Of a stretch of 35,210 nucleotides of DNA, positions 33,600 through 35,210 are shown one piece after another. Source of the DNA: an uncultured Kiloniellales bacterium (lineage in GTDB: Bacteria > Pseudomonadota > Alphaproteobacteria > Kiloniellales > JAKSDN01); the NCBI GenBank assembly GCA_947258885.1, contig CAMYKD010000065.1, positions 1 to 35,210 on the forward strand, in the 5' to 3' direction. The position numbers and the translations under genes are program-made. How positions within the stretch are numbered: position 1 is the stretch's first letter; each line of letters begins with the position of its first letter. The notes under the pieces are model-generated. The model did no database searches, was not told the origin of the DNA, and saw nothing but the letters and a program-made list of their open reading frames with translations.

Positions 33600-34787
33600 C
33601 TAGCGAAACCGGCAAGCGGTCTCCGGCTCGTCGTAACCCAGCGTGTCCAGGAGAGAGCGCTGGTGCAGATAGCCCTGCTGAGGCGAAACCGAGACCAGCG
33701 CCTTGGGCGCGGCCAGCAGAACTGGCTGCCGCAGCTGGCCGTTCCAGGCACGGAAGGTCAATTTTTGCCCCTTGAACCCGGCCAGTTCGAAATCGGGCCC
33801 CGTTATGTAGGTCGCTATCTTGTCGAAGTCCGCCGATTTGGTGCGGGTCGCCGCCTCGCCGATAACCCGGATCGGCGCCCAGACTCCATAGTCGAGCGCT
33901 GTCATGAACCGCCCGGTCATCTTGCGGAAGCGGCTCTGCAGCTGGGCGGCGCCCCAGCGCTCGTGCGTCTGGTGCCAGGACGTCGGCGTCAGACCCTGAG
34001 TGCCGGCCACGGGTCTGGGCTTCCAAGTGCGATAGGCCAGATACTCGCCGAACTCGCCGATCTCGTCGGCCACAATAAGGACATCGTAATCGACGCCCTG
34101 GGTGAAGACCGGGACCTCGGACTGCGCCGTGCGCCGGGCGTCTGGTCCGAATTCCCACGTCTTCTCGGCGACGATCTTGGCCCCGAACCGCTTGGCGGCC
34201 CGTTTGACAGCCGCCGCGTAGAGCCTGTCCCTTTCGCGCCGACCGGTCACCAGGAACCACTCCCGCCACCGCTTCGACATCAGATACTGCGCCAGTGCGT
34301 CGGCCAGCATGGCCCGGCTCGGCCGCACGTGCAGGACGTTGGCCCGGCACGATTCGTTCCGCAACGCGTCGTCCGGCGCCGCGGCGTTGAAGATCAACGC
34401 CTTCGCCGCCTCCGGCAGGTCCGCCATTTCGACGAGTTGCTCGGCAGACACGTTCAGGATGATGAAGCGGTACCCCTGGGCGAGCAGGTTCTTGAATGCC
34501 GCCATCGCATCGCCGCCCGGTGGCACGCTGACATCATGGAACTCGAAGGCCTGCTTCATGAAGCGGCCGGTGGTGTTGTTGTCCTTTATGGCCAAATGGC
34601 CGCCCCGGACTCCTTCGTCTTCCGGCGGGAGGTCGAGGTTGGACAGCTTGGGCGGCCGCTCGAGGACCTGGCCCAGGTGGGCAATACGGACCGTCTCGAC
34701 CTCCTGCGCTCGACCGGGCCCCGGCGGCCAGAGCACCAGCGGCAGCAGAAATAAAAGGCCGGCCGATATTTGCCTGTCCAGACGCAT
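33600..34787 (-). CDS. ABC-type periplasmic substrate-binding protein, PQQ alcohol-oxidation-associated
   Basis: A protein of 395 residues. A signal peptide (ISAGLLFLLPLVLWPPGPGR, cleaved before AQEVE) directs it to the periplasm. The mature protein begins TVRIAHLGQVLERPPKLSNL and shows a two-lobed type I binding-protein pattern: NLLAQGYRFIILNVSAEQLV, LIFNAAAPDDALRNESCRAN, REWFLVTGRRERDRLYAAAV, RFGAKIVAEKTWEFGPDARR and YDVLIVADEIGEFGEYLAYR. It resembles the binding protein that accompanies PQQ-dependent alcohol dehydrogenase systems. The ATG at 34787 has a GGGAGGAA site. It is the first gene of the leftward block. The pairing with an ABC-2 exporter-type permease is odd, since such proteins normally serve importers. 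Confidence 0.85.
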   Translation of the reverse strand: MRLDRQISAGLLFLLPLVLWPPGPGRAQEVETVRIAHLGQVLERPPKLSNLDLPPEDEGVRGGHLAIKDNNTTGRFMKQAFEFHDVSVPPGGDAMAAFKNLLAQGYRFIILNVSAEQLVEMADLPEAAKALIFNAAAPDDALRNESCRANVLHVRPSRAMLADALAQYLMSKRWREWFLVTGRRERDRLYAAAVKRAAKRFGAKIVAEKTWEFGPDARRTAQSEVPVFTQGVDYDVLIVADEIGEFGEYLAYRTWKPRPVAGTQGLTPTSWHQTHERWGAAQLQSRFRKMTGRFMTALDYGVWAPIRVIGEAATRTKSADFDKIATYITGPDFELAGFKGQKLTFRAWNGQLRQPVLLAAPKALVSVSPQQGYLHQRSLLDTLGYDEPETACRFR

Positions 34788-35067
34788 TCGATTCCTCCCA
34801 GCGATCCCGGTGTTTGGCGGCCATTGTCGGAGTTGTGTCTCGCATGTCAATCGAGGCGGGACGGAGAAACGCTTTCGAATTTCGGACTTTCGCATCCTTG
34901 CGGCAGGTCTCCGGTCATGCGTCGACCGACGCCTTCACTGGCGCCGCGCGCCGCGATCGCGAGGATGGCCGGTCGATCGAAGCCATCCGAACTCCCCGAA
35001 GAGCGACCCGGGGACCGTCAAATCGAACCGAAGAAATTTTTCGTTTAGTTGATTCATTTCCGTGTTG

Positions 35068-35083
35068 TTAACCATTCGTTAAC
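35068..35083 (+). promoter_or_regulatory. Perfect CtrA box
   Basis: TTAA-CCATTCG-TTAAC (35068-35083) matches the CtrA consensus TTAA-N7-TTAAC exactly, in an AT-rich patch. It lies just before the candidate small RNA and about 280 bases upstream of the divergent binding-protein gene. The remainder of 34788-35067 shows no convincing gene. Confidence 0.6.
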
Positions 35084-35089
35084 CATGCC

Positions 35090-35180
35090 ATCATAGGGTG
35101 AGGTCATGCCCTTCTAGGGCCTCCTCCCTGTTCAACTTGTCCCCGTTGGGTTTCAAAACCTCAACGGGGATTTTCTTTTT
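35090..35180 (+). ncRNA. Candidate CtrA-linked small RNA with anti-Shine-Dalgarno motif
   Basis: Downstream of the CtrA box a short non-coding stretch holds a hairpin (gccc 35108-35111, gggc 35117-35120, loop ttcta). It is followed directly by CCTCCTCCC at 35120-35128, complementary to ribosome-binding sites, then a single-stranded linker and an intrinsic terminator ending at 35180. No sensible open frame exists. CCUCCUCCC motifs next to short stems occur in alphaproteobacterial trans-acting sRNAs such as the alpha-r14 group. The 5' end is a guess, giving a length of about 85-95 nt. Confidence 0.45.
35140..35180 (+). terminator. Strong Rho-independent terminator
   Basis: tccccgttg (35140-35148) pairs perfectly with caacgggga (35162-35170), with a 13-base loop (35149-35161), followed by ttttcttttt (35171-35180). 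It is the clearest intrinsic terminator in the window. No protein-coding gene ends before it, which supports a small RNA upstream. Confidence 0.85.
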
Positions 35181-35210
35181 GCGGATCGGAACCGGCCTCC
35201 GGCGCCGCCG

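Follow-up and report, generated by a model that had tools for sequence, protein, structure and literature searches.

Features of the locus

The analyzed DNA, called here the window, is the whole stretch of 35,210 nucleotides formed by bases 1-35210 of contig C65 (36,954 bases) of assembly G000. Close to its right end, it carries a compact plus-strand unit, preceded by a divergent gene encoding a periplasmic binding protein. The features are the following:

33600..34787, minus strand: divergent periplasmic binding protein gene, Peripla_BP_6 (Pfam match on the 431-aa frame 33600-34895), a possible target
35068..35082, plus strand: CtrA box TTAA-N7-TTAA, letters TTAACCATTCGTTAA, which would overlap the -35 region; half-sites kept in the four compared assemblies
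35090..35096, plus strand: possible -10 element ATCATAG, proposed from its spacing only
35101..35180, plus strand: predicted small RNA (sRNA) of about 80 nt with a putative start, delimited by the RF00519 match (35101-35185, 38.2 bits) and by a conservation block
35108..35120, plus strand: alpha-r8-like 5' hairpin of 5 bp, GCCCT-TCT-AGGGC, found by folding, invariant in the four assemblies and aligned with the RF00519 hairpin
35120..35129, plus strand: anti-Shine-Dalgarno core CCTCCTCCCT, whose last eight of ten letters are those of the alpha-r8 10-mer UUUCCUCCCU; invariant in the four assemblies
35123..35139, plus strand: CCTCCCTGTTCAACTTG, found with identical letters in a second, SorX-like RNA of the order
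35139..35180, plus strand: Rho-independent terminator, a bulged stem-loop (35139-35171) followed by a T-rich tail, found by folding

An initial sequence-only reading of this DNA had described a perfect CtrA box, a short stem and a strong intrinsic terminator, and all three were recovered. The box is the sole TTAA-N7-TTAA of the window, where 0.02 copies are expected (200 first-order Markov sequences). The terminator was not listed by a mechanical terminator scan of the window, probably because its stem is bulged. The RNA unit begins about 18 bases past the box, and a start near 35101 would place the first half-site at about -33. A sigma-70 promoter scan of the window listed no plus-strand site, the candidate -10 element included, and G004, one of the compared assemblies, keeps of this element only the TA at 35094-35095. 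The RNA starting at 35101 has a predicted fold of -30.4 kcal/mol (z = -4.2). The anti-Shine-Dalgarno motif CCTCCTCCC (35120-35128), which is unremarkable by itself (0.88 copies expected per window on both strands), had been presented as exposed. It is indeed present, but four of its nine letters are paired in the best fold of 35101-35180 (one in the hairpin and three with a 5' AGG). The pairing with the 5' AGG is absent from the G004 fold, and a start near 35085 would leave more of the motif paired.

Conservation and distribution of the unit

Four assemblies were compared: the window's own (G000), the same-genus G001, G004 and a further orthologue (L064). The conservation described here rests on these four sequences, two of which are 97% identical. 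In a DNA search of 58 genomes (own genome included), parts of 35040-35210 were matched in nine, and promoter and RNA were covered together only in G000, G001 (97%) and G004 (82%). The four-way alignment delimits the unit: the varying columns amount to 29 of 38 upstream (35030-35067), 9 of 31 in the promoter stretch (35068-35098), 3 of 48 in the RNA (35101-35148), 12 of 13 in the terminator loop (35149-35161), none of 8 in the 3' side of the terminator (35162-35169) and 18 of 20 downstream (35181-35200). Motif conservation in sister genomes, which had been proposed as a check, was thereby observed, since both CtrA half-sites and CCTCCTCCC are kept in all four assemblies. G004 retains the half-sites at their 7-base spacing despite changed letters between them. 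Three of the 19 base pairs change on both sides, all of them in the inner part of the terminator stem, which has 14 pairs in total; this covariation is weak, because 36 of 500 shuffles match the observed double-sided changes and because 5 of 76 cells are unpaired (5 of 56 in the terminator stem). The 5' hairpin never varies in the four assemblies and is therefore uninformative on covariation.

When the four assemblies were used to build a covariance model of the unit, this model gave 111.2 bits for G000, 108.9 for G001 and 100.9 for G004, and at most 45.3 bits for the other 58 of the 61 genomes of the order. Among 385 genomes of the class, the best score outside G000 was also 45.3 bits (G001 and G004 are not among the hits of this draw). 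The lower hits are mostly the second conserved, SorX-like RNA of this order. The boxed RNA was therefore found in three of the seven genomes of the family, plus L064. The model had no hit in G002 (same genus, 91% complete) or in G005 (96%), and the boxed RNA was not found either in two other genomes of the family, which are 69-72% complete (G003 and G006).

Family assignment

A cmscan search of 34800-35210 gave as best match RF00519 (suhB, "Makes More Granules Regulator RNA"), with 38.2 bits and an E-value of 1.7e-6. The match extends over all 77 positions of the model, and the hairpin, the core and the terminator follow one another as they do there. It lies 2.8 bits under the gathering score of the family (41 bits); no Rfam family reaches its gathering score in the window. 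The next matches are anti-hemB (19.3 bits) and SorX (RF02784, 18.1 bits for a gathering score of 46.6). The sequence-only reading had suggested a relative of alpha-r14. This was rejected, none of the six Rfam matches up to E = 10 being so named and the one strong match being that to alpha-r8/MmgR. The letters CCUCCUCCC also occur in the SmelA075/SmelA099 "CCUCCUCCC" RNAs and in alpha-r14/NfeR1. SmelA075 and SmelA099 have three or four hairpin loops that each carry this motif (PMC3927594), whereas the boxed RNA has it once and outside a loop.

The likeness to MmgR/alpha-r8 of Sinorhizobium meliloti (RF00519) includes the 77-nt class, a 5' GCCCUUCU-GGGC hairpin, the UCCUCCCU core and the terminator. 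However, the boxed RNA differs from it by a core that starts with CC instead of UU, by a longer spacer and by its score below the Rfam cut-off. Its core CCUCCUCCCU shares eight of the ten letters of the alpha-r8 10-mer, which is found exactly in 133 of 140 RF00519 loci. SisA-D of Caulobacter crescentus (alpha-R8) resemble it by their anti-Shine-Dalgarno core and by the presence of several siblings in one genome. As described in PMC12559287, these RNAs (R0014, R0133, R0143 and R0157) act via the anti-Shine-Dalgarno 10-mer with Hfq. In G000 itself, a second place resembling RF00519 lies at C142:1194-1271 (35.9 bits), and three others resemble it more weakly. An RF00519 match was found in 54 of 61 genomes of the order (E 0.001) and in 204 of 386 drawn genomes of the class (1e-4). 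Two genomes of the class (G301 C1:743793-744391 and G211 C4:3801090-3801687) carry alpha-r8 copies in tandem, with at least three per array.

The second conserved RNA of the order has GAAGCCTCCCTGTTCAACTTG and a terminator, the last 17 of these letters being those of the boxed RNA; like SorX (RF02784), it shares with the boxed RNA a CCUCCCUGUU core followed by a terminator. The boxed RNA combines the alpha-r8 hairpin with the core-to-terminator spacer of this second RNA, by descent, exchange or convergence. It could instead belong to a separate SorX-like anti-Shine-Dalgarno family, its likeness to alpha-r8 then being a convergence of hairpins. The identity of CCTCCCTGTTCAACTTG in the second RNA is in line with this alternative, as is the match of one copy of that RNA (L014, G000 C42:32-107) to RF02784, at 37.5 bits and so under the cut-off. 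Nevertheless, we consider it rather unlikely, since the boxed RNA itself scores 18.1 bits against SorX versus 38.2 against RF00519 and since the hairpin at its 5' end is that of alpha-r8.

Copies of the second RNA were seen in the order and beyond (most of L233-L250, L252 and L254, and also L010 and L014), typically as CTACGTCTCCCAGACGTGAAGCCTCCCTGTTCAACTTG followed by a terminator. No Rfam gathering match was found in the copies scanned, and 6S RNA was rejected as its identity, no 6S match being present in the scanned loci. In L060, it neighbours a LysR gene and a Sel1-repeat gene. In L005, a match to sul1 RNA (RF03058, positions 1395-1447, 35.3 bits for a cut-off of 36.2) lies beside it on the opposite strand.

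Relation to CtrA

G000 encodes a CtrA homologue (C1:34032-34712) with 70% identity over residues 1-227, as well as a second homologue at C5 (55%). Among the TTAA-N(4-10)-TTAA sites of this genome, the N7 spacing accounts for 27 of the 50 sites listed, out of 103 counted (binomial p = 5e-11 versus 1/7), as expected if CtrA selects that spacing. Low-affinity CtrA binding at other spacings is noted in PMC3616915. As in members of a CtrA regulon, TTAA-N7-TTAA is located at promoter distance in the four assemblies and the CtrA protein is encoded in the genome. Within C1:33000-36000, which includes the ctrA gene of G000 and about 1.3 kb upstream, the perfect box is absent, and duplexfold gave no clear pairing of the RNA with the ctrA leader.

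The promoter of the boxed RNA was compared with those of 140 RF00519 loci (30 from the order set and 110 from the class set, including L165 which is devoid of CTCCC); 139 of them have enough upstream DNA, L109 being dropped as too short. None of the 139 carries a perfect TTAA-N7-TTAA in the 75-base stretch and two carry it with one mismatch. The control stretches located further upstream contain more near-boxes than the promoters (eight with one mismatch) and one perfect box. Since one of 139 control stretches has a perfect box, the conservation of the box carries more weight as evidence than the presence of a single copy. The alpha-r8 promoters have another signature, TGCANYGC, found in 93 of 139 promoters versus 22 of 139 control stretches, which we take to be an AniA/PhaR-like motif; the boxed RNA has the CtrA box in its place. 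According to PMC8401924, mmgR is reported to be under NtrC and AniA control. No shared promoter motif is reported for SisA-D, and the word "CtrA" is absent from the main text of the corresponding article (PMC12559287).

The unit may alternatively be a real anti-Shine-Dalgarno sRNA whose box is no working CtrA site, a housekeeping sigma factor driving its transcription and the conserved letters corresponding to a -35 element and a spacer. TTAACC could act as a -35-like element, the bases outside the half-sites (35083-35101) are conserved too, and a perfect box does occur in one control stretch. However, the maintenance in G004 of both half-sites at a 7-base spacing with changed letters between them, the preference of the genome for N7 and the absence of any perfect box from the other alpha-r8 promoters make this explanation unlikely.

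A scan of a very large contig collection retrieved 13 stretches in which a perfect box precedes the core: the G001 copy (L073), the orthologue L064, three alpha-r8-like stretches and eight that look like chance. The three alpha-r8-like ones (L067 from Skermanella, L069 and L070) have a perfect box, alpha-r8-like cores and terminator-like hairpins. They score 38.4 bits (L067) and 33.4 bits (L069) against RF00519, with no match at E 0.01 for L070. They are possible parallel cases of a perfect box placed before alpha-r8-like RNAs, but all three could be due to chance, given the frequency of the box in the control stretches and the size of the collection scanned.

Genomic neighbourhood and coding potential

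The upstream neighbour of the unit is the divergent Peripla_BP_6 gene in G000, whose likely ATG (34787, a start picked by eye) is preceded by GGGAGGAA, and an ABC ATPase gene in the same direction as the RNA in G001. In L064, a transposase-like frame (495-1739, ISL3-like by eye) separates the orthologous sRNA from the ABC transporter genes. Since the upstream neighbour differs among G000, G001 and L064, the RNA unit is not a leader tied to one particular gene. Downstream of the sRNA, small frames read towards it (L047 2313-3545, beyond the window, and L049 553-831). They look holin-like or lipoprotein-like by eye. G001 conserves one of them, the stretch is partly masked, and Pfam gave for them matches below cut-off or none. 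An N-formylglutamate amidohydrolase gene is not alongside among the scanned neighbours (the Peripla_BP_6 gene and the small frames without Pfam match over cut-off); according to PMC12559287, this gene usually, but not obligatorily, adjoins single alpha-r8 copies.

The sequence-only reading also held that the region has no plausible open frame. A GTG frame starting at 35098 is in fact open through the RNA in the four assemblies, but it seems not to be coding: of the three changes among its first 51 bases, two affect codon position 1, one affects position 2 and none affects position 3, and the peptides diverge past the terminator. A short protein was therefore rejected. This reading had named as contrary evidence a leader of a longer gene with an unconserved motif, which is not what was found, CCTCCTCCC being invariant. 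Although the open GTG frame is what one would expect of a short coding gene, the avoidance of codon position 3 and the constancy of the unit while its upstream neighbours change make it very improbable that the locus is such a gene, or the terminator or attenuated leader of a neighbour gene, with motifs assembled by chance.

Candidate targets

The pattern AGGGAGGA-N(3-13)-ATG, where AGGGAGGA is the full complement of UCCUCCCU, occurs at 40 sites in G000 versus two for the reversed pattern, a bias like that of a ribosome site. After removal of two frames of less than 60 aa, 38 of the 40 genes were retained. Thirteen encode a protein in which Pfam finds a substrate-binding domain above its cut-off; L268 was left uncounted, its TctC match falling just short. 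The control site AAGGAGGA, one letter off and a better ribosome site, has 28 occurrences and yielded 23 genes (five frames of less than 60 aa dropped). Substrate-binding proteins are encoded by 13 of the 38 genes versus two of the 23 control genes (Fisher p = 0.033; p = 0.061 if the control is limited to the 20 proteins scanned at first), and a crude signal-peptide rule retained 18 of 38 versus three of 23 (p = 0.011). This signal is post hoc, since the binding proteins were seen before the control site was chosen, and it is not creditable to the boxed RNA alone, since C142:1194-1271 and C42:32-107 have similar cores. Genes for binding proteins may also just have a preference for this ribosome site. 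The targets of the boxed RNA would perhaps be mainly substrate-binding-protein genes, as this modest, post hoc signal suggests.

Phasins reportedly rise in an mmgR mutant; no phasin domain was matched among the 38 genes, six of which have no Pfam match at all. The energies given by duplexfold ignore the own folding of each RNA and are far too large, and they were used only for ordering. Matching is most extensive at AGGGAGGAGGCCC, which precedes a GST-like gene (C76:5426), and at AGGGAGGAGGCC, which precedes a gene encoding a TAXI-type (NMT1_3) binding protein (C131:7291). In G001, the same 16-letter site precedes the same TAXI-type gene, as judged by its first residues.

A probable CtrA-controlled sRNA of the alpha-r8 kind

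Taken together, these sequence data suggest that the unit is probably a free-standing gene for a trans-acting sRNA of the alpha-r8 (MmgR/SisA) kind, controlled by CtrA and found in one family-level lineage of Rhodospirillales. The sequence-only reading is partly supported: it was right on the anatomy and, in outline, on the kind of element (an sRNA-like unit that stands by itself and has a conserved box, in a genome carrying a CtrA gene), but the family is alpha-r8-like and not alpha-r14. CtrA would bind 35068-35082 and switch transcription from about 35101, by activation rather than repression. The resulting RNA of about 80 nt would end at the terminator and would be bound by Hfq, which is encoded in G000 (111 bits). 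Its core CCUCCUCCCU would pair with G/A-rich ribosome sites of the AGGGAGGA type and repress a set of genes. Genes for periplasmic substrate-binding proteins may be frequent in this set, in which case uptake would change along with the CtrA programme. A more speculative possibility is that, in this lineage, an extra copy with an alpha-r8 hairpin and a SorX-like spacer gained a CtrA promoter. A nutrient-uptake sRNA of the alpha-r8 kind would thus have come under cell-cycle control, and the repression of many ABC/TRAP binding-protein genes would follow the CtrA programme.

CcnA of C. crescentus, which we take to be CCNA_R0094, is described as a CtrA-linked non-coding RNA. Table 3 of PMC5988900, which gives the CtrA sites of chosen ncRNAs, shows two full CtrA boxes for CCNA_R0094 and does not include SisA-D. 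Among the titles and abstract starts retrieved by searches of open-licence PubMed Central text, no paper joining alpha-r8 with CtrA control was found. SisA acts on TonB-dependent receptors, according to PMC12559287.

In print, alpha-r8 RNAs are tied to carbon and nitrogen state, and SisA to carbon starvation through the CrfA sponge. If the proposed control by CtrA is true, it would link a cell-cycle regulator directly to the post-transcriptional control of nutrient uptake, and it would illustrate how duplicated sRNAs diverge by promoter exchange while their pairing core stays nearly fixed. AbcR RNAs act on transporter genes, and the candidate target set recalls, by type, both AbcR and SisA RNAs.
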